Assembly: GCF_000373145.1 (NCBI RefSeq)
Contig: NZ_KB890602.1
Coordinates: forward strand, 214,483 to 278,482
DNA from: Thermus oshimai DSM 12092
GTDB lineage: Bacteria > Deinococcota > Deinococci > Deinococcales > Thermaceae
Reading direction: 5' to 3'
Length of the DNA: 64,000 nucleotides
Each line of letters starts with the position of its first letter. The stretch's first letter is position 1. The notes below the pieces were generated by a model. The model saw only the letters and a list, made by a program, of their open reading frames with translations, had not been told where the DNA came from and ran no database searches. Shown here piece by piece: positions 49,012-59,376 of the stretch. The position numbers and the translations under genes were made by a program.

Positions 49012-50258
49012 AGGTCCTGGTGGTGGGTTCGGGGGGGCGGGAGCACGCCCTCCTCTGGAAGGCGGCCCAAAGCCCCCTGGTGGAACGGCTCTACGCCGCC
49101 CCCGGCAACGCGGGGATGGCGGAGCTCGCCGAGCTCGTCCCCTGGAACGGGGAGGTGGAGGCCCTGGCGGACTGGGCCCTAGGGGAGGGGATTGACCTCA
49201 CCCTGGTGGGCCCGGAGGCCCCCCTGGTGGAGGGGATTGCGGATGCCTTCCAGGAGCGGGGCCTTAAGATCTTCGGTCCCACCCAGAAGGCGGCCATGAT
49301 TGAGGGCTCCAAGGCCTTCGCCAAGGCCCTCATGGAGCGCTACGGCATCCCCACCGCCCGCCACCGCACCTTCCAGGACCCCCTTCTGGCCCTGGAGTAC
49401 CTGGAGGAGGTGGGGGTGCCCATCGTGGTGAAGGACTCGGGCCTGGCCGCGGGGAAGGGGGTCACGGTGGCCTTTGACCTGCACACCGCCAAGCAGGCGG
49501 TGGCCAACATCCTGAACCGGGCAGAGGGGGGGGAGGTGGTCATCGAGGAGTACCTGGAAGGGGAGGAGGCCACGGTCCTGGCCCTCACCGACGGAAAGAC
49601 CATCCTCCCCCTCCTCCCCTCCCAGGACCACAAGCGCCTCCTGGACGGGGACCAGGGCCCCATGACCGGGGGGATGGGGGCCATCGCCCCCTACCCCATG
49701 GACCCCGCCACCCTAAAGGCGGTGGAGGAGAGGATCCTTAGGCCGCTCCTCGAGGGCCTTGAGGCGGAAGGGGTGGTCTACCGGGGGGTGGTCTACGCGG
49801 GCCTCATGCTCACGAAGGAGGGCCCCAAGGTTCTGGAGTTCAACGCCCGCTTCGGCGACCCCGAGGCCCAGGCCCTCCTGCCCCTCTTGGAGAATGACCT
49901 GGTGGAGCTGGCCCTAAGGGTGGCCGAGGGGCGGCTTGCCGGCACCCGGCTCTCCTGGAAGGAGGGGGCCTCGGCCTGCGTGGTCCTGGCCGCCCCCGGC
50001 TACCCGGAAAGCCCCAGGAAGGGCATCCCCCTCCACCTCCCCGAGCCCCCGGAAGGGGTCCTCCTCTTCCACGCGGGGACCCGGAGGGAGAAAGGGCGGC
50101 TTGTGAGCGCCGGGGGGCGGGTCCTCAACGTGGTGGGCCTCGGGGCCACCCTGGAGGAGGCCCTGGAAAGGGCCTACGGCTTCATCCCCAGGATCGGCTT
50201 CCCGGGGGCGGTCTACCGGAAGGACATCGGGGCCCGGGCCCTCAAGGCTAGTACCTGA
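49008..50258 (+). CDS. purD: Phosphoribosylamine-glycine ligase
   Basis: Second step of purine synthesis; 416 residues, full length. N-terminal VLVVGSGGREHALLWKAAQ, ATP-grasp centre VVKDSGLAAGKGVTVA and LPSQDHKRLLDGDQGPMTGG, then VLEFNARFGDPEAQALLPLL. It is the last gene of the plsY-like-FAH-MBL-purN-purD run and overlaps the convergent exonuclease gene by 11 bases. Confidence 0.97.
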   Translation: MKVLVVGSGGREHALLWKAAQSPLVERLYAAPGNAGMAELAELVPWNGEVEALADWALGEGIDLTLVGPEAPLVEGIADAFQERGLKIFGPTQKAAMIEGSKAFAKALMERYGIPTARHRTFQDPLLALEYLEEVGVPIVVKDSGLAAGKGVTVAFDLHTAKQAVANILNRAEGGEVVIEEYLEGEEATVLALTDGKTILPLLPSQDHKRLLDGDQGPMTGGMGAIAPYPMDPATLKAVEERILRPLLEGLEAEGVVYRGVVYAGLMLTKEGPKVLEFNARFGDPEAQALLPLLENDLVELALRVAEGRLAGTRLSWKEGASACVVLAAPGYPESPRKGIPLHLPEPPEGVLLFHAGTRREKGRLVSAGGRVLNVVGLGATLEEALERAYGFIPRIGFPGAVYRKDIGARALKAST

Positions 50259-52131
50259 GCCGGGCCAAGGGGAGCCCGGCGCAGGCCCGGAGCACCGCCC
50301 CCAGGGTCCGGTACCCCTTCCCCTCTAGGAGGGGGATCATCTTGGCGAAGACCTCCGCGGTCATGAGGGCGTCCCCGAGGGCGGTGTGCCGCCCCAGAAC
50401 GGGCACCCCAAACCGCTCCGCTAAGGCCTCGAGGCGGTGGTCCTCCAGGTCGGGGAAGAGGAGGTGGGAGAGGAGGAGGGTGTCCACCAGGGGGGTCTTC
50501 TCCACGCCCGCCTGCCTCAGGAAGGCCATGTCAAAGGCCCCGTTGTGGGCCACCAGGACGGTTTCCTCTATGAAGGCCATGAAGGCGGGCAGGACCTCCT
50601 CCAGCCTGGGCTTGCCCTTAAGCATCTCCCAGGTGAGGCCGTGGACCTCGGTGGAGGCCTTGGGGATGGGCCGGCCCGGGTCCAGAAGGGCCTCAAAGGT
50701 TTCCCCCTTGAGGACCCGCCTTCCCAGGAGGTGCACCGCCCCCAGGGCGATGATCCGGTCCTCCCTGGGGTTAAGCCCCGTGGTCTCCAGGTCAAAGGCC
50801 GTGTAGAGGAGGCCCCCCAGGGGGGCCTCCTCCAGGGCCTTGGGGGCTTGCAGAAGGCTTAGGTCAAAGACCTCCGCCCTAGGGGGCGGGCCCTCTTCCC
50901 GCACCCGCTTAGGCACGGGGCGGGCGGGAAGGAGGAGGACCAGGCGGGTTCCTTCCCGCCACAGGCTCCCCCCCGCCTCCCCCACCGCCTTCCCCAGGAG
51001 GGGGGTGGGGGTGGGGGCTTCCTCGGCCAGGACCTCGAGGCGGAAAAGCCCCCCCATGGCCTCCCCCCGGAGCCAGACCGCCTCCCCCAGGGGCTTCAGG
51101 CCCTCCAAAAGCCCCCGGGCCAGGGCGAAGGTGTCCACCCGCACCAACAGCCCCCGGGCCTCCTCCGCCAGGGACTGCCCCGGGGCGTAGCCCAGGCCCC
51201 GCTCTATGGCCTCCGAGAGGAGGCGGAGGAGGTCTTCCGAAAGCACCTCCTCCGCCCTCGGGGGTGGGGCGAGGGCCTCCGCGAGCCCCGCCACCTCCTC
51301 CGCGGCGGCCCGGGCCGCCCGTAGAAGGGGGGTGAGCCCTGGGGGCACCTCCCCCTCCAGGGCCTCCACCAACGCCTTGAGCCCCGCCGCCTTGTCCTTC
51401 AGGCGGAAGAGGAGGTCCTCGGGGAGGGCGGCCCCCTCCTCCTCAGGTTCCAGGAGAAGCAAAAACCCCTCCTCCAGGGGCAGGGCCTGGAGCCTCAAGG
51501 CCCCCTTGGGCCCCTGCGCCAGGAAGCGCTCCCCGGGCAGGGCCAGGGCGTGGACCAGAAGGGCCCGGTCCAATAGGCCAAAGAGGCTTTTCCCCGCCCC
51601 AAGCCCCTCCCCCAGAAGGGTCCGGGCCTTGGGGTTGTAGAGGAGGACCTGCCCCCGGGCGTTGGCCACCACCACCCCCTGGGGCAGGTGGCCGATGAGG
51701 GCGGAAAGCTTCTCCCGCTCTTCCTCCAGGAGGGCCCTCGCCTCCTTAGCCCGGGCCTCGGCCTCCTGGAGGAGGCGTTCCTTTTCCTCCGCCAGGCGGT
51801 TGATGAGGTCCGCCAGGGCCTGAAGCTCCAAGGGCCCCCTTAGCTTCAGGCGGTGCCCGGGGTTCGTGAGGAGGACCGCCCCCTCCTGCCCCAGGGCCCG
51901 GGCCGCGGCCAGGTAGCCCAGGAAGAGGGGGCGGAGGAGGAGGGCCAGGACCCCCAGGAAGAGGAAGAGGAGGAGGAGGAGCAGGGGGGCCTTGGCCCGG
52001 GCCACCTGGAGGAGGGCCTCCTTGAGCGCCTCCTCGCCTTGGAGAAGGAGGAAAAGCCCTAAGGCGAGGCTTCCTCCCATGAGGAGAGCCCCCACCAAGA
52101 GGGCCCCCAGGAAGCGGAGGAGATCCCTCAT
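50248..52131 (-). CDS. Membrane PAS/degenerate-kinase protein fused to a DEDDh exonuclease
   Basis: 627 residues. Two hydrophobic segments (~5-30, 48-75), a coiled coil (~105-145), a PAS domain (LSALIGHLPQGVVVANARGQ), then a helical part and a kinase-ATPase-like end (LGKAVGEAGGSL to VLLLPA) without a recognisable phospho-histidine or N-box. The last ~180 residues are an epsilon-type 3'-5' exonuclease with all motifs: TAFDLETTG, LVAHNGAFDMAFL and GRHTALGDALMTA. It overlaps the response regulator by 4 bases. Probably a signal-controlled nuclease; the target is unknown. Confidence 0.85.
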   Translation of the reverse strand: MRDLLRFLGALLVGALLMGGSLALGLFLLLQGEEALKEALLQVARAKAPLLLLLLFLFLGVLALLLRPLFLGYLAAARALGQEGAVLLTNPGHRLKLRGPLELQALADLINRLAEEKERLLQEAEARAKEARALLEEEREKLSALIGHLPQGVVVANARGQVLLYNPKARTLLGEGLGAGKSLFGLLDRALLVHALALPGERFLAQGPKGALRLQALPLEEGFLLLLEPEEEGAALPEDLLFRLKDKAAGLKALVEALEGEVPPGLTPLLRAARAAAEEVAGLAEALAPPPRAEEVLSEDLLRLLSEAIERGLGYAPGQSLAEEARGLLVRVDTFALARGLLEGLKPLGEAVWLRGEAMGGLFRLEVLAEEAPTPTPLLGKAVGEAGGSLWREGTRLVLLLPARPVPKRVREEGPPPRAEVFDLSLLQAPKALEEAPLGGLLYTAFDLETTGLNPREDRIIALGAVHLLGRRVLKGETFEALLDPGRPIPKASTEVHGLTWEMLKGKPRLEEVLPAFMAFIEETVLVAHNGAFDMAFLRQAGVEKTPLVDTLLLSHLLFPDLEDHRLEALAERFGVPVLGRHTALGDALMTAEVFAKMIPLLEGKGYRTLGAVLRACAGLPLARLRY

Positions 52132-52487
52132 CCCTCCCCCAGAAGCCTCCGCACCTCTTCCATCAGGGCCCGGGTGCTGAAGGGCTTGGTCATGAAGGCC
52201 TCCGCCCCTAAGGCCAGGGCCTTGGCCCGGTCCGCCTCCCGGCCCCGGGCGGTGAGGACCAGGACCTTGGGCCTTTCCGGCCTCCCCTTAAGGGCCTCCA
52301 GGACGGAAAACCCGTCCAGGCCCGGGAGCATCAGGTCCAGGACCACCAGGGCGAAGCCCCCTTCCTCCAGGGCCCTTAGGGCCTCCTCCCCCGTGCGCGC
52401 CAGCACCACCTCGTGCCCCCCCTTCCTCAGGAGGAACTCCAGGGGCACCAGGATGCTCTCCTCATCGTCCACCAAGAGAACCCGCAT
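52128..52487 (-). CDS. Receiver-only response regulator
   Basis: 119 residues, a single receiver domain: VLLVDDEESILVPLEF with the acidic pocket, phospho-acceptor in VVLDLMLPGLDGF (about residue 52), VLVLTARG, and the lysine in FMTKPFSTRA. There is no DNA-binding output, so it must act on another protein. ATG 52487 has GGAGGTGGAGG upstream and lies 26 bases inside the kinase gene; it overlaps the exonuclease gene by 4 bases. Confidence 0.92.
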   Translation of the reverse strand: MRVLLVDDEESILVPLEFLLRKGGHEVVLARTGEEALRALEEGGFALVVLDLMLPGLDGFSVLEALKGRPERPKVLVLTARGREADRAKALALGAEAFMTKPFSTRALMEEVRRLLGEG

Positions 52488-54984
52488 CCTCCACCTCCAG
52501 GGGCAGGGTGAAGGCGAAGCGCCCGCCGGGCCCCGCCTCCGCCCAGATCCTGCCTCCCATGGCCTCCACCATCCGCCGGGCCAGGGAAAGCCCCAGGCCC
52601 AGCCCGCCGGTTTTGCTCTGGAAGGGCTCAAACACCCGCTCCACCTCCTCCGCCCCAAGCCCCGGCCCGTCGTCCTCCACCCGGAAGAGGGCCTCCTGGC
52701 CCTCTTTCCTCAGGGTAAGCCGGACCTCCCTCCTGGCGTGGCGGAGGGCGTTGGAGAGGAGGTTGAGGAGGACCTGGAGGAGCCGGTCCCGGTCGGTCTG
52801 GGCGGAAAGGGCCTCCAGCCTTCCCGAAAGGACCACCCCCCTTTCCCCCGCCAGGGGGGCCACCAGGGCCAGGGCCTCCTCCGAAAGGGCCTTCAGGTCC
52901 ACCCGTTCCCGCTTGAGGGGGAGGGCCTGGAGGCGGGAAAGCTCCAAGACCTCCTCCACCAGCCGGGAAAGCCGTTCCATCTCTTTGCGCACCAAGGTGG
53001 TGAACCGGGCCCTTTCCTCCTCCGGGAGGTCCTTGTGGTCCTCCAGGATCTCCACCAGGGCCCGGGCCGCGGCCAGGGGGGTGCGGAGCTCGTGGGCCAC
53101 CGCGGCCAGGAACTCGTCCTTCGCCTGGTCCATGGCCTTGAGGCGCTCGTAGGCCTCGGAAAGTTCCGCCCGGGCCTCCTCCAGGGCCTTGGCGTAGGCC
53201 CTCACCGCCTGGGATTCCTGGGCGGCTTCCGCCACGGCCTCGAGGGGGGCCTCCTGGGTCACGGAGAGGAGGAGGAGGCGGGCGGTGGCGGGCCCCACCG
53301 CCCCCGCCAGGAGGGCCTCCGCCCGGGCGGCCAGCTCCGCCCCTTCCCCAAGCCCCCGGGCCTCTTCCAAAAAGGCCCGCTTGGCCTCAGGGCCCAGGAC
53401 CCTTTCCAAAAGCTCCGCAAGCTCCTCCGCCTTCCCCAGCCGGGAGAGGGCGGGCACCCCTTGGGTGAAGGCCAAGGCCTCCCGGGCCTCCTCCTTCCGG
53501 GGGCGGGTGAGGTGGGAGACCAGGAGGTGCAGGGCCAGGTTGAGGGTGAGGCTTGCCAGGAAGCCGTGGGTCACGGGGTCCAGGTCTCTCACGCCCAAAA
53601 GCCCCTCGGGGCGGAGGAGGGGGTGGGGGCCCTCCAGGAAGGCCTCGGGAAGCCAGCCGGAGCGGGCTAGGGCGGGGAGGAAGAGGGTGTAGGCCCACAC
53701 GCCCATCCCTCCCAGAAGCCCCGCCAGGGCCCCCTGCCTGGTGCTTCCCGTCCAGAAGAGGCCGAGAAGCCCCGCCGGGGCCAGCTGGGCCACGGCCACG
53801 AAGGAGATGAGCCCCATGGCCACCAGGGCGTAGGCCTCCCCCGCCAGGCGGAAGTAGAGGTAGCTCAGGAGGAGGATGAGGAGGATGGAGGCCCGCCGCC
53901 AGAAGAGGAGGCTTCCCAAAGCCCGGTAGCGGAGGAGGAAAGGGGAGAGGAGGTGGTTGGAGACCATGACCGAAAGGGCCAGGGTTTCCACGATGACCAT
54001 GGCCGTGGCCGCGGAAACCCCCCCCAAAAAGGCCAGGAAGGCCAGGGCCTCGCTTCCCAAGGAAAGGGGCAGGGCCAGGACGTAGAGGTCCGGGGGGGCC
54101 TCGAGGCGGAGCCGCCCCCAAAGGGCCAGGGGGAGCACCGGGAGGTTGATGAGGAAGAGGTAGAGGGGAAAGGCCCAGGCCGCCTGGGGGAGGTGGCGCT
54201 CCTCCTGGTTCTCCACCACCGCCATGTGGAACTGCCGGGGGAGGAAGAGGAAGGCCAGGCCCGAAAGCAGGGTGAGGCTCACCCAGGCCAGGTGCCCCCC
54301 AAGCCCCTCAGGGGGGAGGAGGAGGGGGTGGAGCTCGGGCCGGGCCAGGGCCTCGGGGAAGGGGTTCCCGAGCTTCAGGAGCACCCACCCCCCCACCAGG
54401 AGGAAGGCGAAGAGCTTCACCAAGGACTCAAAGGCCACCGCCAGCACCAGCCCCTCGTGCCTTTCCGAGGGGTCCAGGCGGCGGGTGCCGAAGAGGATGG
54501 CGAAAAGGGCGAGGCTTAGGGCCACCACCAGGGCCACGTCCCCCAAAGGGCGGCTTTCCCCTTCCAGGTAGAGGAACCCCTGGGCGATGGCCTTCAGCTG
54601 GAGGGCCAGGTAGGGGAGGAGGCCCACCACCAAAAACCCCGCCACCAAGGCCCCGACAAGGGGGTCCCGGCCGTAGCGCACGGAGAGGAGGTCGGCCCAG
54701 GAGGTGAGGCGGTAGGCCCGGGCAAGCCTCAAAAGCCGGAGGTGCAAAAAAGGCCAGAGGGTGAGGACCAGGGTGGGCCCGAGGTAGACGGGGAGGAAGG
54801 TGGCCCCTTCCGTGGCCGCCCGCCCCACGCTCCCAAAAAAGGTCCAGGCCGTGGCGTAGACCGCGAGGGATAACGCGTAGGTCCAGGGGCTTCGCACCAG
54901 GGCCCGCCCCCGGCCCTCCCCCAGGAGGCCCACCAGGAAGAGGAGGCCCAGGTAGAGGAGGAGGCCCAGAAGGAGCCCGCTCAT
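52462..54984 (-). CDS. Sodium/solute symporter-histidine kinase fusion (CrbS-like)
   Basis: 840 residues. The first ~500 are an SSS-family symporter with about 13 helices (TAWTFFGSVGRAATEGATFLP, ISFVAVAQLAPAGLLGLFW). A helical linker leads to the kinase: H-box VAHELRTPLAAARALVEIL, N-box VLLNLLSNALRHA, G-boxes VEDDGPGLGAEE and GGLGLGLSLARRMVEA. It resembles CrbS, the acetate-linked sensor of Gammaproteobacteria. It is read with the receiver gene (26-base overlap). It probably senses transport or level of acetate or a similar acid. Confidence 0.93.
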   Translation of the reverse strand: MSGLLLGLLLYLGLLFLVGLLGEGRGRALVRSPWTYALSLAVYATAWTFFGSVGRAATEGATFLPVYLGPTLVLTLWPFLHLRLLRLARAYRLTSWADLLSVRYGRDPLVGALVAGFLVVGLLPYLALQLKAIAQGFLYLEGESRPLGDVALVVALSLALFAILFGTRRLDPSERHEGLVLAVAFESLVKLFAFLLVGGWVLLKLGNPFPEALARPELHPLLLPPEGLGGHLAWVSLTLLSGLAFLFLPRQFHMAVVENQEERHLPQAAWAFPLYLFLINLPVLPLALWGRLRLEAPPDLYVLALPLSLGSEALAFLAFLGGVSAATAMVIVETLALSVMVSNHLLSPFLLRYRALGSLLFWRRASILLILLLSYLYFRLAGEAYALVAMGLISFVAVAQLAPAGLLGLFWTGSTRQGALAGLLGGMGVWAYTLFLPALARSGWLPEAFLEGPHPLLRPEGLLGVRDLDPVTHGFLASLTLNLALHLLVSHLTRPRKEEAREALAFTQGVPALSRLGKAEELAELLERVLGPEAKRAFLEEARGLGEGAELAARAEALLAGAVGPATARLLLLSVTQEAPLEAVAEAAQESQAVRAYAKALEEARAELSEAYERLKAMDQAKDEFLAAVAHELRTPLAAARALVEILEDHKDLPEEERARFTTLVRKEMERLSRLVEEVLELSRLQALPLKRERVDLKALSEEALALVAPLAGERGVVLSGRLEALSAQTDRDRLLQVLLNLLSNALRHARREVRLTLRKEGQEALFRVEDDGPGLGAEEVERVFEPFQSKTGGLGLGLSLARRMVEAMGGRIWAEAGPGGRFAFTLPLEVEDAGSLGGR

Positions 54985-55151
54985 CGCCGCACCCCCAGGT
55001 AGAGGAGGAGGATGAGTCCCCCCCAGGCCAGGAAGAGGTAGAGGTAGAAGGGGGGCAGGCCCAAGGGCCCCTGAGGGCCGAAGAAGAGGGGAAAGGGCAG
55101 GCTGAAGAGGAAAGCCCCCAAGAGAAAGAGGAGAACGCTTCGCACCCTCAT
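54981..55151 (-). CDS. 56-residue two-helix membrane protein
   Basis: Short gene read directly from sequence: MRVRSVLLFLLGAFLFSLPF at the start, a second hydrophobic helix (FYLYLFLAWGGLILLLYLGV) at the end. Its ATG lies in the stop of the DUF294 gene and its stop in the ATG of the symporter-kinase (ATGA at both ends), so it is surely translated with them. It is probably an accessory subunit of the symporter-kinase, as DUF4212 is of ActP-type symporters. Confidence 0.8.
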   Translation of the reverse strand: MRVRSVLLFLLGAFLFSLPFPLFFGPQGPLGLPPFYLYLFLAWGGLILLLYLGVRR

Positions 55152-56890
55152 CGGAGCTGGAACCGGACGGCGGTGTTCTCCTGCACCTCCTGGATGGCCC
55201 GGAAGCCCTCCAGGGCCCGCCTCTTCTCCCCCGGGGAGAGGGCCTCCCAGCGCACGCGGTTTTCCGGAGGCCGCCCCTCCTCCAGGGCCTGGAGCTGGGC
55301 CTTGAGGCGGAGCCCGAAGAAAAAGCCGAAGGCCTCCTCCAGCCGTTCCGCCCCTTCCCGGCTTAGGGTGCCCCCCTGGGCCGCGGCCCTAAGCCGCGCC
55401 CCGGTGCCCTTGGCGGGGCTTCCCGCCATGAGGGCGTAGAGGCGGGCCAGGGCCACGATGGGGGCCAGGGCCTGCCGCTTTAGATCTATGAAGCCCCCTT
55501 CCGTGCGCACCCGTCCAAAGAGCCCCAGGGGAGGGCGGAACTCCAGGGCGGCCTGGGCCAGGTGGTAGAGGAAGACCCCCCGCTTGGCCCCCTGGAGGAT
55601 GGCCTCCTCCAGGGGGGCGAGGGGGAGGCTTCCCCCCACGGGCCGCAGGTCAAAGAAGATCTGGGTTTCCAGGAGGGCCTTGGGTTCCGGGGCCTCCATC
55701 CAGCGGCGGAAGGTGTCCACCCATTCCTTTAGGGGCATCCGCCAGCGGGTGGCCATGTACCCCCCCTTGCACTCCGGGATGCCCGCCTGGATCAGCCCCC
55801 CCACCACCGCCTCGGCCAGGGGGGCGAAGTAGGCCTCATGCCCCCCCTCCGAAAGGACCAGGGCGTTGTCCTGGTCCGTGAGGAGGGCCTGCTCCCGCCG
55901 CCCTTCCGAGCCGAAGACCATGAAGCTGTAGGGCACAGGGGGCGGGCCCAGGCGGGCCTCCGCTTCCTTTAGGAGCCTCTTGATGAGGGCGTCGTTCAGC
56001 CCCGCCACCACCCGGCCGATGTCCCAGGGGGAAACCCCCCCCTGGAAGAGGTGGGCCACCAGCCGGGCCACCTCCTCCGCGTAGCGGGAAAGCTCCAGCC
56101 GCTCCACCCGCCTCAGGAGGACCAGGGGGCTTTCCATGCTGGGGAGGAGGTCGGTGTGGGTCACCACCCCCACCACCCGCTCCCCCTCCACGAGCACCAG
56201 GTGGTGGATGCCCCGCTCCACCATGGCCGCCAGGGCCTCGTAGAGGGGGGTGTCCGTGGGCAGGGCGAAGAGGGGCCGGGTGGCCACCTCCCCCACGGGG
56301 GTGGAGGGGGGAAGGCCCTGGGCCAGGACCCGGTTCCTCAGGTCCCGGTCCGTGAGGATGCCCAAGGGCTCCCCCTCCACCAGGAGGCTGGAAACCCCCT
56401 CCTGGGCCATCTGCCGGGCGGCCTCCTCCACCGTGGCCGTGGGGGCGATGAAAAGGGGCGCGCGGCGCACCAGCCGCCCCACGGGGGTGAAGAGGTTCGC
56501 CCGAAAGCCCTGGAGGCGCCCCCGTTCGGAGAGCCCCTCCAAGAAGAAGCGGGCGGCCTCGGGGAAGGTGAGGAGCCAGAAGAAGACCTCCTTGGGCCAG
56601 CGAAGGACCTCCACGGGCTCGAGGGCCTCCACCCCCAGGGCCGGGGGCTCCCCTAGGAGCAGGGAGGGGAAGCCGAAAAAGCGCCCTGGCCCTAAGACCT
56701 CCACCGGCCGCTCCCCGTCCTTCAGGGCCACCCGGCCCTGGGCCACCAGGTAGAGGTGGCGGGCGGGCTCCCCCCCCTGGACCAGGATCTCCGCCCCTTC
56801 GGGGTAGGTGGCCCGCTCCGCCTGGGCCCGTAGGCGCTCCAAGGCCGCCTCAGGCAGGGCCTTTAGGGGTGGGATCCGGGCGAGGTCCAT
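55148..56890 (-). CDS. cNMP-binding/CBS/DUF294 putative nucleotidyltransferase
   Basis: About 580 residues. Cyclic-nucleotide-binding-like domain (~5-115: ILVQGGEPARHLYLVAQGRV), two CBS motifs (~150-265: VGVVTHTDLLPSME ends the pair), the DUF294 nucleotidyltransferase core FMVFGSEGRREQALLTDQDNA near residue 335, and a helical C-terminal DUF294 domain. GSxGRxE and DxD resemble GlnD. ATG 56890 lies inside the end of the upstream gene; ATG 56923 is also open. In other bacteria such genes accompany SSS symporter-kinases. Confidence 0.88.
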   Translation of the reverse strand: MDLARIPPLKALPEAALERLRAQAERATYPEGAEILVQGGEPARHLYLVAQGRVALKDGERPVEVLGPGRFFGFPSLLLGEPPALGVEALEPVEVLRWPKEVFFWLLTFPEAARFFLEGLSERGRLQGFRANLFTPVGRLVRRAPLFIAPTATVEEAARQMAQEGVSSLLVEGEPLGILTDRDLRNRVLAQGLPPSTPVGEVATRPLFALPTDTPLYEALAAMVERGIHHLVLVEGERVVGVVTHTDLLPSMESPLVLLRRVERLELSRYAEEVARLVAHLFQGGVSPWDIGRVVAGLNDALIKRLLKEAEARLGPPPVPYSFMVFGSEGRREQALLTDQDNALVLSEGGHEAYFAPLAEAVVGGLIQAGIPECKGGYMATRWRMPLKEWVDTFRRWMEAPEPKALLETQIFFDLRPVGGSLPLAPLEEAILQGAKRGVFLYHLAQAALEFRPPLGLFGRVRTEGGFIDLKRQALAPIVALARLYALMAGSPAKGTGARLRAAAQGGTLSREGAERLEEAFGFFFGLRLKAQLQALEEGRPPENRVRWEALSPGEKRRALEGFRAIQEVQENTAVRFQLR

Positions 56891-57209
56891 GGTCTGGGGT
56901 GAGCCAGGCGAAGAGGGGGACAATAAAGTGCAGGGCCACCTGGGCCTGGAAGAGGATCAAAAGGCCGATCCCCAGCATGAAGGCCGGGGGGAGGAGGACG
57001 AAAAGCCGCACCACCCGGCCAAGCCCTGGGGGGGGCAGGGGCCAGAGGCGGTGGTAAAGGAGGCCAAGCCCCATGCCTATCCCTACCCCAAGGGCCACCT
57101 GGAAGAGGTGGAGGGGTGTGGGGAAGGGGAACCCCAAAAGGTAGTGCCCGAGGAGGTAGAAGGCGAAAAGCAGGCTTAGGCTTCCCAGAAAGAACCTTAG
57201 ATGGCGCAT
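56850..57209 (-). CDS. Small multi-helix membrane protein heading the signalling operon
   Basis: 119 residues, not recognised. About four hydrophobic stretches: FFLGSLSLLFAFYLLGHYLL, the Gly-rich ALGVGIGMGLGLLYH, VVRLFVLLPPAFMLGIGLLIL, and the last near residue 95 (VALHFIVPLFAWL). ATG 57209 follows GAGGTGAGG. Its end overlaps the DUF294 gene by 41 bases. A terminator (57242-57273) separates it from the actP operon upstream, so its promoter is probably close to 57220. Confidence 0.72.
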   Translation of the reverse strand: MRHLRFFLGSLSLLFAFYLLGHYLLGFPFPTPLHLFQVALGVGIGMGLGLLYHRLWPLPPPGLGRVVRLFVLLPPAFMLGIGLLILFQAQVALHFIVPLFAWLTPDHGPRPDPTPKGPA

Positions 57210-57241: not shown

Positions 57242-57273
57242 AACCCCCCAGGCCCTAAAGGGCCTGGGGGGTT
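57242..57273 (-). terminator. Terminator of the actP operon
   Basis: AACCCCCCAGGCCCT (57242-57256) and AGGGCCTGGGGGGTT (57259-57273) form a perfect 15-bp stem with a 2-base centre, 13 bases after the actP stop. Strongly symmetric, so it could work on both strands. Confidence 0.75.
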
Positions 57274-57285
57274 AGCCGGAAGGCG

Positions 57286-58956
57286 TTAGTGGTCCACCGC
57301 GGCCCCGCTCCCCTTGGGGGTGCGGATCTCGTCCACCAGCTTCTGGATCTCCGCGGGGGGCGGTGGCGTGGCCCGGGAGACCAGGTAGGCCACCAGGAAG
57401 TTGAGGAGCATGCCCACGGTGCCGATGCCCTCCGCGGTGATGCCCAGGATGAAGTTGGGCCAGCCCAGGTACTTGGTGCCGATGATGTAGGCGGCGGTGA
57501 AGACCAGGCCCACCACCATGCCCGCCACCGCCCCTTGCATGTTCATCCGGCGGTCAAAGATCCCCAGGAGCAGGGCGGGGAAGAAGGTGCTGGCGGCCAG
57601 GCCGAAGGCGAAGGCCACCAGCTGGGCGATGAAGGCCGGGGGGTTGATGCCGAAGGGGGCGGCCAGGATCACCACCAGGGCGATGATCACCCGGGCAATG
57701 GTGAGCTTGGTGCCCTCCGAGGCCTGGGGGTTGATCATGCGGGTGTAGAGGTCGTGGGAGATGGCGCTGGCGATGACGATGAGAAGCCCCGCGGCGGTGG
57801 AAAGGGCCGCGGCCAGGCCCCCGGCGGCCACCAGGCCCACGATGAAGGGGGCCAGCTTGGCCACCTCCGGGGTGGAGAGGACGATGATGTCCCGGTCAAT
57901 GGTGACCTCGTTTGCGTCCGCCTGCCCGCTCATCTGGAGGATGCCGTCCCCGTTCTTGTCCTCAAACTTGAGGAGGCCGGTCTTCTCCCACTTGGCCACC
58001 CAGTCGATCTGGCGCACCTCCTCTAAGGGCTTGTTCGCCAGGGTGTTCAGGAGGTTGTACTTGGAGAAGACGGCCACCGCGGGGGCGGTGGTGTAGAGGA
58101 GGCCGATGAAGAGCAGGGCCCACCCCGCGCTCCAGCGGGCATCGGAGGCCTTAGGCACCGTGTAGAAGCGGATGATCACGTGGGGCAGGCCGGCCGTGCC
58201 CACCATGAGGGTCAGGGTGATGAGGAGCACGTTGAGGGCCGAGAGGTTCTGGAAGGGGGCCACGTACTCCTTGAAGCCCAGCTCCACCTGGAGCTGGCTC
58301 AGGCGCACGGCGAAGTCGGAGAAGGTGAAGGAGAGCTGGGGGATGGGGTTGCCGGTGAGGAGGTTGGAGAGGGCGATGCCCATGATGAGGTAGGCGGTGA
58401 TGAGCACCGCGTACTGGGCCACCTGGGTCCAGGTGATGCCCTTCATCCCCCCGATGACGGCGATGAAGGCGGTGACCAGAACCGCCGCCCAGACCCCCGT
58501 GGCCACGTCCACCCCCAGGTAGCGGGAGAGGACGATGCCCACACCCCTGAGCTGGGGCACCATGTACACGAAGGAGACGAAGATGGCGCTGATGATGGCC
58601 ACCACCCGGGCCAGGTTGGAGTAGTAGCGGTCCCCCACGAACTCGGGCACCGTGTACTTGCCGTACTTCCGGAGGTACGGGGCGAAGAGAAGGGCCAGGA
58701 GCACGTACCCCCCTGTCCAGCCCATGAGGTAGACCGCCCCGTCGTAGCCCAGGAAGGAGATGAGGCCCGCCATGGAGATGTAGCTGGCCCCGGACATCCA
58801 GTCCGCGGCGGTGGCGGCCCCGTTGGCCACAGGGGGCACCCCCCGGCCGGCCACGTAGAAGCCCGCGGTCTCCCGCACGCGGGCCCAGTACCCGATGCCC
58901 AGATAGAGGGCGAAGCTCAAAAGAACGATAGTCCAGGTCCAAACTTCCGCGTTCAT
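57286..58956 (-). CDS. actP: Cation/acetate-type sodium symporter, large subunit
   Basis: SSS-family transporter of 556 residues with about 13 helices, probably importing acetate or a related acid with sodium. AGRGVPPVANGAATAADWMSGAS near residue 40 and PHVIIRFYTVP near residue 235 are typical. A soluble insert near residue 325 reads FEDKNGDGILQM, an EF-hand-like DxNxDG loop. DUF4212 (58967-59224) is its small subunit. The name rests on similarity and on the CrbS-like neighbours; the substrate is not proved. Confidence 0.88.
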   Translation of the reverse strand: MNAEVWTWTIVLLSFALYLGIGYWARVRETAGFYVAGRGVPPVANGAATAADWMSGASYISMAGLISFLGYDGAVYLMGWTGGYVLLALLFAPYLRKYGKYTVPEFVGDRYYSNLARVVAIISAIFVSFVYMVPQLRGVGIVLSRYLGVDVATGVWAAVLVTAFIAVIGGMKGITWTQVAQYAVLITAYLIMGIALSNLLTGNPIPQLSFTFSDFAVRLSQLQVELGFKEYVAPFQNLSALNVLLITLTLMVGTAGLPHVIIRFYTVPKASDARWSAGWALLFIGLLYTTAPAVAVFSKYNLLNTLANKPLEEVRQIDWVAKWEKTGLLKFEDKNGDGILQMSGQADANEVTIDRDIIVLSTPEVAKLAPFIVGLVAAGGLAAALSTAAGLLIVIASAISHDLYTRMINPQASEGTKLTIARVIIALVVILAAPFGINPPAFIAQLVAFAFGLAASTFFPALLLGIFDRRMNMQGAVAGMVVGLVFTAAYIIGTKYLGWPNFILGITAEGIGTVGMLLNFLVAYLVSRATPPPPAEIQKLVDEIRTPKGSGAAVDH

Positions 58957-58966
58957 CCCCCACCCC

Positions 58967-59224
58967 CTAGTCGTGGACGTCGTACTCCCGGTCCAGCTTG
59001 GCCATGCGGTTGGCGTAGACGAAGATCAGGATGATGAAGACCCAGATGGCCCCCTGCTGGGCGATCCAGAAGCCCAAGGGGGCTCCCCCGAACACCCGTA
59101 CCCCGTTGAGGGCTGGGGCTAGGAGGATGCCGAGCCCGTAGGCCACCACCGCCCAGATCACCAGGAGGTTGCGGATGAGGGCCAGGTTCTTCTGCCAGTA
59201 CTCTTCCAGCCTTTTTCCGTCCAT
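58967..59224 (-). CDS. DUF4212 small subunit of the sodium symporter
   Basis: 85 residues, two membrane helices (LLVIWAVVAYGLGILLA and FWIAQQGAIWVFIILIFVYA) with an N-terminal YWQKNLALIRNLL stretch, as in DUF4212 proteins always paired with this symporter type. It has GGGAGG before the ATG and is followed by actP after 10 bases. Confidence 0.93.
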   Translation of the reverse strand: MDGKRLEEYWQKNLALIRNLLVIWAVVAYGLGILLAPALNGVRVFGGAPLGFWIAQQGAIWVFIILIFVYANRMAKLDREYDVHD

Positions 59225-59290: not shown

Positions 59291-59319
59291 ATCTTAGAGA
59301 GGGATGAGGGGCCTGTCAA
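59291..59319 (-). promoter_or_regulatory. Promoter of the DUF4212-actP operon
   Basis: TTGACA (59319-59314), 17-base spacer, TAAGAT (59296-59291) on minus. Near-consensus SigA promoter; the leader is about 60 bases. Confidence 0.85.
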
Positions 59320-59376
59320 GAAAAGGGGGTTTTTTCGCTATGCGCCAAAGGTGGGGTTTTTAAAGGGAAAGCGAAA

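Follow-up and report, generated by a model that had tools for sequence, protein, structure and literature searches.

What does a two-component system control when its operon encodes no DNA-binding regulator? The question is raised by a gene cluster of Thermus oshimai DSM 12092 that lies within the 64,000-nucleotide stretch of DNA analyzed here (the window; contig NZ_KB890602.1, C1:214483-278482 within the 2.26-Mb genome). On the minus strand from 57209 to 50248, six open reading frames (ORFs) encode, in order, a 119-residue membrane protein, a DUF294 nucleotidyltransferase, a 56-residue membrane protein, a histidine kinase with an SLC5-like transporter domain, a receiver-only response regulator, and an exonuclease fusion. 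An earlier note on this DNA had listed these six genes and their families and had stated that each overlaps the next. Both statements held: all of the ORFs were in place, the domain searches agreed, and overlaps were found at all junctions, of 41 nucleotides (nt) between the 119-residue and DUF294 genes (DUF294 start at ATG 56890), of 26 nt between the kinase and receiver genes (receiver start at ATG 52487), and of the ATGA type at the DUF294/56-residue, 56-residue/kinase, and receiver/exonuclease junctions. An ORF call of 52128-52658 for the receiver starts too early and was rejected in favor of 52487-52128. Directly upstream of the six genes, across a gap of 76 nt, lie genes for a DUF4212 protein and a VC_2705-family symporter, giving a cluster of eight (Table 1).

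We propose that this cluster is a genus-wide version of a widespread response unit for acetate or other short-chain acids, in which the kinase would signal to the receiver and the receiver to a pseudokinase-gated exonuclease, with the DUF294 protein in the same response; we hold the chances for and against this proposal to be about equal. The symporter would take up acetate or a similar short-chain acid, and the kinase, with a CbrX-like 56-residue partner on its transporter domain, would sense the acid and phosphorylate the stand-alone receiver. The receiver would not bind DNA and would dock on the pseudo-histidine kinase of the membrane-tethered DEDDh exonuclease and so turn this enzyme on or off. 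The part of the DUF294 protein would be that of a GlnE-like nucleotidyltransferase controlled by the energy state through its cNMP and CBS domains, and it might write a nucleotidyl mark for the exonuclease to trim or remove. We infer the kinase-to-receiver and receiver-to-exonuclease steps from gene pairing and domain content, and the ligand, the docking, the direction of control, the exonuclease substrate, and the writer and eraser roles are likewise conditional. The gene content, the intact catalytic residues, the loss of the pseudokinase motifs, and the conserved linkage are direct observations. The proposal is favored because the receiver and exonuclease genes pair, the fusion co-occurs with this class of kinase, and the pseudokinase is like the kinases encoded with the 56-residue protein and the receiver (together, the cassette). 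That the output of the two-component system is a nuclease, gated through binding of the receiver to the pseudokinase and acting with a GlnE-like partner, so that several phyla would have a post-transcriptional counterpart to CrbS/CrbR, is a tentative idea, slightly more doubtful than credible.

The exonuclease fusion and its signaling partners

The fusion consists of two transmembrane segments, a PAS domain, a degenerate kinase, and an RNase_T/DEDDh exonuclease. The exonuclease residues D447, E449, D534, H582, and D587 are intact; the corresponding residues were retained in 29 of 29 aligned fusions and lost in three relatives (L226, L227, and L233) considered below. The N-terminal 435 residues matched the HAMP-PAS-DHp kinase 4i5s (E=1e-6), and in a profile-profile comparison with the cassette kinases, the N terminus was aligned over both DHp and CA (hhalign probability 96%, P=5e-9). 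The earlier note had called this part a degenerate kinase, and the N-box, G1, and G2 motifs are indeed gone, with F242 at the H-box position in the window. Judged from its sequence, the N terminus is a pseudo-histidine kinase without working kinase motifs. The H-box position is occupied by His in 12 of 14 same-genus proteins and by Glu in 11 of 14 proteins from outside Thermaceae. The phosphorelay suggested in the note was not borne out: a literal phosphorelay is unlikely because the fusion has no conserved acceptor His, and docking would fit better than phosphate transfer into the fusion. A pseudo-DHp profile scored most cassette kinases at 28 to 50 bits and a few as low as 18, compared to 21 to 34 bits for other kinases, and a longer pseudokinase profile gave 13 bits on the one hybrid CrbS that it matched. 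One genome (G071) has the fusion and lacks both the kinase and the receiver; there the pseudo-DHp helices are deleted and the flanking parts kept, a loss that, in this one case, is what receiver docking at that place would predict. At the Longimonas locus L173, the receiver gene is followed by one for a separate PAS-pseudokinase without an exonuclease and then by AcsA. This arrangement speaks for the receiver and the pseudokinase as a pair, and so does the continued adjacency of the two genes in L226, L227, and L233, where receiver and exonuclease are both degenerate. The fusion was matched as two pieces at G047:C3:641270-643176, G052:C1:52826-54735, and G060:C1:1210940-1212810, from a frameshift or an assembly error.

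The SLC5-like domain of the kinase matched the CbrA structure 10ed over residues 10 to 543 (phmmer E=1.9e-72), and Pfam SSF matched it at E=0.03 only. The DHp and CA domains are intact (HELRTP; HisKA and HATPase over cut-off), and the 840-residue protein is non-hybrid, ending after HATPase, with its receiver separately encoded. A helical segment at residues ~505 to 610, a putative STAC domain, is kept among the cassette kinases, including those of L059 and L192; the CbrA match stops before most of this segment. The phospho-pocket of the receiver is intact (D7, D8, D51, and the K in KPF), and the cassette receivers cluster together as their own group, to which hybrid-CrbS receivers gave a weak match (41 bits) or none. 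The 56-residue protein is hydrophobic, with two helices predicted from its sequence and with relatives in four phyla. Family searches gave no match for it or for the 119-residue membrane protein, and it had no profile match among PDB chains, the CbrX sequence itself not having been directly compared. CbrX is a two-helix peptide that is translationally coupled to cbrA (PMC6591292) and that binds the SLC5 domain in a structure (PMC13022988).

The DUF294 protein comprises a cNMP-binding domain, two CBS domains, DUF294 (PF03445, 151 bits), and DUF294_C (PF10335, 148 bits). Its polymerase-beta nucleotidyltransferase motif (GS..R.E, DQD) is intact, and the G, S, R, D, and D were invariant in 36 proteins. 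In its structure model, with a predicted local distance difference test (pLDDT) score of 89, the nearest multi-domain PDB folds were protein adenylyltransferases, including both halves of E. coli GlnE (3k7d/1v4a). The modeled protein resembles adenylyltransferases such as GlnE, and transfer of AMP is putative. Like GlnE and GlnD, it has a polymerase-beta-type nucleotidyltransferase, and its fold and C-terminal domain are related to theirs; a single family takes in DUF294_C and the GlnD/GlnE domains (PMC3710099). It differs from them in its cNMP and CBS sensory domains and in having an exonuclease as its partner, compared to the in-cis removal domain of GlnE and GlnD. Second, more divergent cNMP/CBS/DUF294 paralogues occur in a sister genus (L046 and L048), with no exonuclease match alongside. 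At L174:9046-10536 and L176:9975-11429, a CBS-DUF294 gene without a cNMP domain lies right after the receiver gene, and a second, cNMP-containing DUF294 gene lies by the symporter.

Conservation of the gene set

The claim of the earlier note hung on linkage outside this genome, and the linkage was found to be conserved in the genus and in Chloroflexota, Gammaproteobacteria, and Alphaproteobacteria; it is not due to chance. The genomes counted are related to each other and are not independent, many of them are drafts, and adjacency was counted by tblastn with the cassette proteins, by which very divergent neighbors may be missed. Within the genus, the kinase, DUF294, and exonuclease genes were found together in 24 of 27 genomes, and the same was true of G032, from another genus. 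Most of the other Thermaceae examined, as well as G009 from another family, have a core set of DUF4212, symporter, 119-residue, DUF294, and stand-alone exonuclease genes without the cassette; by this comparison of gene orders, the cassette is inserted into the core set in the 24 same-genus genomes and G032. Two same-genus genomes (G050 and G058) have only a CBS-DUF294 gene without a cNMP domain and a short exonuclease gene. In G069 and G032 (L038, L041), a different symporter gene (42% identity) precedes the DUF294 gene, and no DUF4212 gene was present in the fetched stretch.

When the DUF294 protein was used as the anchor, a stand-alone exonuclease gene lay right after it in 78 of the best 80 loci, which span Actinomycetota, Chloroflexota, Rhodothermota, Gammaproteobacteria, and Alphaproteobacteria; long "fused" exonuclease ORFs at these loci were judged to be read-back artefacts, arising from G+C-rich frames, and were rejected. 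With the transmembrane-PAS-pseudokinase part as the anchor, 15 of 321 Gammaproteobacteria were positive. An active fusion was present in 10 of the 13 gammaproteobacterial genomes with the kinase class, compared to 2 of the 308 without it (Fisher P=7e-15), and in nine of those 10 the fusion and kinase lie within ~5 kb, the tenth being cut by a contig end. The DUF294, 56-residue, kinase, receiver, and exonuclease genes are in the same order in the gammaproteobacterial loci L224 and L225, and in L223 AcsA, these five genes, and symporter-DUF4212 genes all lie inside 13 kb. Among 190 Alphaproteobacteria, five full-length and two shorter fusions were found, all by receiver, 56-residue, and kinase genes in a rearranged arrangement. 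Of 301 Chloroflexota, one (L192) carries all eight genes in the order seen in the window, next to an AcsA/PrpE-like gene. Overall, of the 21 assessable active fusions outside Thermaceae, 18 lie by the 56-residue/kinase cassette (or, where a contig ends, by its 56-residue gene), and 13 are directly preceded by the receiver gene.

Known systems and alternative outputs

The earlier note had placed an acetate-type symporter alongside the six genes, and the TIGR03648 match (Table 1) agrees. Six loci, from three phyla, have an AcsA or AcsA/PrpE-like gene next to the cassette (L173, L192, L193, L223, L261, and L263), and ActP-DUF485 genes adjoin two fusion genes. In Pseudomonas putida, MxtR/ErdR controls an operon of pp_0354 (DUF294) and pp_0353 (exonuclease); loss of the exonuclease impairs growth on pyruvate but not on acetate, and the pp_0354 and pp_0353 mutants are unlike in phenotype (PMC9927547). 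The DUF294 protein pflu5625 is under CrbR control (PMC5715377), and in PAO1 the exonuclease and DUF294 genes of PA3232-PA3235 lie beside actP-yjcH (PMC5715377, PMC9927547, PMC9765439). An acetate-type role is supported by the VC_2705 symporter, the AcsA-type neighbors, ActP-DUF485, and this published regulon; the safer wording for the ligand is a short-chain monocarboxylate, with acetate, propionate, and pyruvate not told apart.

The cluster is like CrbS/CrbR (MxtR/ErdR) of Vibrio and Pseudomonas in that an SLC5-type sensor kinase is linked with Acs and an acetate-type symporter, with DUF294 and exonuclease genes in the regulon. However, CrbS is a hybrid kinase, its receiver lying at the C terminus, and it acts on a DNA-binding regulator of the LuxR type, whereas the kinase here is non-hybrid and no such regulator is encoded in the operon. 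The stand-alone exonucleases found in this analysis lack the transmembrane, PAS, and pseudokinase part of the fusion, and the CrbS/CrbR-linked genes are scattered, compared to one overlapping operon here. The families and part of their association are already known, the DUF294/exonuclease pair being a published CrbS/R (MxtR/ErdR) target in Pseudomonas; the literature searched described neither the receiver/pseudokinase/exonuclease unit nor its spread, and none of it linked a pseudokinase, an exonuclease, a receiver domain, and a histidine kinase together. The CbrX-CbrA-CbrB system of Pseudomonas likewise has a gene for a micro-protein of two transmembrane segments preceding and overlapping the gene of its kinase, the SLC5/STAC protein CbrA, but CbrB is a sigma-54 activator, and the operon here has no such output. 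In DivK/DivL, the readout of a receiver-only protein is its binding to a protein that resembles a histidine kinase; the signal from DivL enters a kinase relay, whereas the pseudokinase here is fused to an exonuclease.

Several observations weigh against a nuclease output. The single-sequence AlphaFold model of the fusion had a pLDDT of 43, its fold resting on sequence profiles. Cassettes without an exonuclease fusion occur at L059, L174-L176, L180, L193-L195, and L261-L263. In the three relatives with a catalytically dead exonuclease (L226:662-2737, L227:7118-9193, and L233:7198-9246), all of the exonuclease catalytic motifs and the receiver acidic pocket are lost and the genes are still adjacent, the exonuclease gene lying directly behind the degenerate receiver gene with no cassette kinase nearby. 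By their motifs, these relatives are a pseudo-exonuclease family, and because the exonuclease is dead in them, nuclease activity would not always be needed. In addition, the genome has two orphan receiver-LuxR genes, and the output of MxtR/ErdR in Pseudomonas is transcriptional. The orphan genes also speak for a different output, namely, transcription: the kinase would signal to a LuxR-type regulator encoded elsewhere, as CrbS does to CrbR, the receiver would be a phosphate sink or inhibitor, comparable to the hybrid-CrbS receiver domain in detached form, and the exonuclease would be merely co-expressed. LuxR-type regulator genes adjoin the cassette in L059 and L176, the targets of MxtR are expressed more strongly once its receiver domain is deleted (PMC5436829), and a conserved promoter element, described below, points to some regulator. 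The statement in the earlier note that no DNA-binding output exists therefore stands for the operon but not for the genome or for L059 and L176. Nevertheless, the orphan LuxR gene at C1:178.7-179.4 kb occurred in 108 of the 111 genomes that represent the phylum, compared to the kinase in 25; as a phylum-wide gene whose distribution does not follow the kinase, it is not an obvious candidate for a dedicated partner. The separate grouping of the cassette receivers and their weak or absent match to hybrid-CrbS receivers also disfavor transcription, the promoter element occurs in relatives without the kinase as well and differs in sequence from the ACTU motif of CrbS/CrbR target promoters, and the pairing of receiver and exonuclease genes would be unexplained. 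We consider a transcriptional output unlikely. The second orphan receiver-LuxR gene lies at G000:C18:98.6-99.2 kb (L200:3579-4229), beside an rplS-like gene.

It is distinctly improbable that the receiver acts on the kinase/transporter or the DUF294 protein, tuning uptake, with the exonuclease being unrelated RNA or DNA housekeeping under a shared promoter. A DUF294 gene does directly follow the receiver gene in L059, L174, and L176, and fusion-less cassettes exist, but the fusion bears a pseudokinase at the place where a receiver would dock, its gene is normally the neighbor of the receiver gene, and it is found together with this class of kinase. A somewhat unlikely reading, which is compatible with a receiver-gated exonuclease and names its chemistry, is that the DUF294 protein and the exonuclease are writer and eraser: the first would place AMP or another nucleotide onto an RNA end or a protein (e.g., the symporter or Acs), and the second would remove or trim it. 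The position of the exonuclease gene right after the DUF294 gene in 78 of the 80 best loci, the invariant nucleotidyltransferase motif, the fold near GlnE adenylyltransferase, and the common family of DUF294_C and the GlnD/GlnE domains all argue for it. Against it, GlnE takes AMP off by phosphorolysis and not by an exonuclease. Moreover, the target of DUF294 transfer is putative, DUF294 genes occur without a detected exonuclease at L046, L048, L084, and L087, and the two P. putida mutants differ in phenotype (PMC9927547). Finally, unrelated genes are common in bacterial operons, and tight overlaps are usual in compact genomes, but the rebuilding of the same set in several orders across four phyla makes it very improbable that this is an ordinary operon of separately acting genes held by chance or co-expression.

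Promoter region and wider meaning

The sigma-A-like promoter was the sole promoter-like match across the 9.6 kb scanned, and because this site sits upstream of the DUF4212 gene, the eight genes are probably transcribed together as a single unit. A palindrome-like element lies ~24 bp upstream of the -35 box at near-constant spacing in the window and in L039, L040, L042, L056, L057, and L045; the window copy is imperfect, and a pattern scan of the window for the element was not above chance, the element being recognized from the orthologous promoter alignment alone. Its conservation suggests that some regulator acts on the promoter of the symporter operon. Hairpins are present in the same gap between the symporter and 119-residue genes of 5 relatives. 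In the window, the hairpin (57273-57242) lacks a T tract and did not appear in the terminator scan; it was therefore not accepted as a canonical terminator and is possibly an attenuator or a stability element. The 5' leader (59290-59225) contains an inverted repeat, ACGCAAACC/GGTTTGCGT, near the DUF4212 ribosome-binding site; it is not conserved in the aligned relatives.

Table 1. Features of the eight-gene cluster in order of transcription (window coordinates)
Feature	Coordinates	Strand	Basis
Palindrome-like element TTTGGCGCATAGCGAAAAA (also written CTTTTGCGCATANCnGCAAA)	59331..59349	-	Aligned promoters of 7 Thermaceae
Probable sigma-A promoter, TTGACA-17-TAAGAT	59291..59319	-	10/12 matches; conserved in relatives
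DUF4212 small symporter subunit	58967..59224	-	PF13937 E=2e-34; TIGR03647 over cut-off
VC_2705-family sodium/solute (acetate-type) symporter	57286..58956	-	TIGR03648 791 bits vs cut-off 320.75
G+C-rich hairpin	57242..57273	-	In the 76-nt gap between symporter and 119-residue genes; no T tract
119-residue membrane protein	56850..57209	-	Conserved in Thermaceae and L192; no family match
cNMP-binding/CBS-CBS/DUF294/DUF294_C protein	55148..56890	-	Pfam; ATG 56890 preferred to TTG 56923
56-residue membrane protein, CbrX-like in position, size, and topology	54981..55151	-	No family match; hydrophobic sequence
SLC5-type histidine kinase (STAC segment putative), non-hybrid, 840 residues	52462..54984	-	CbrA 10ed match; HisKA, HATPase over cut-off
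Receiver-only response regulator, 119 residues	52128..52487	-	PF00072 E=7e-25
Fusion of two transmembrane segments, PAS, pseudo-histidine kinase, and DEDDh 3'-5' exonuclease, 627 residues	50248..52131	-	RNase_T; profiles

The gene set is compact, thermostable, and genetically tractable for biochemistry. If the proposal is true, the receiver plus pseudokinase-exonuclease would be a new two-component output, compared to the transcription factor in the SLC5/STAC kinases studied (CrbS, CbrA, and RpuS), and would help account for why the Pseudomonas acetate regulon includes an exonuclease and a DUF294 protein.

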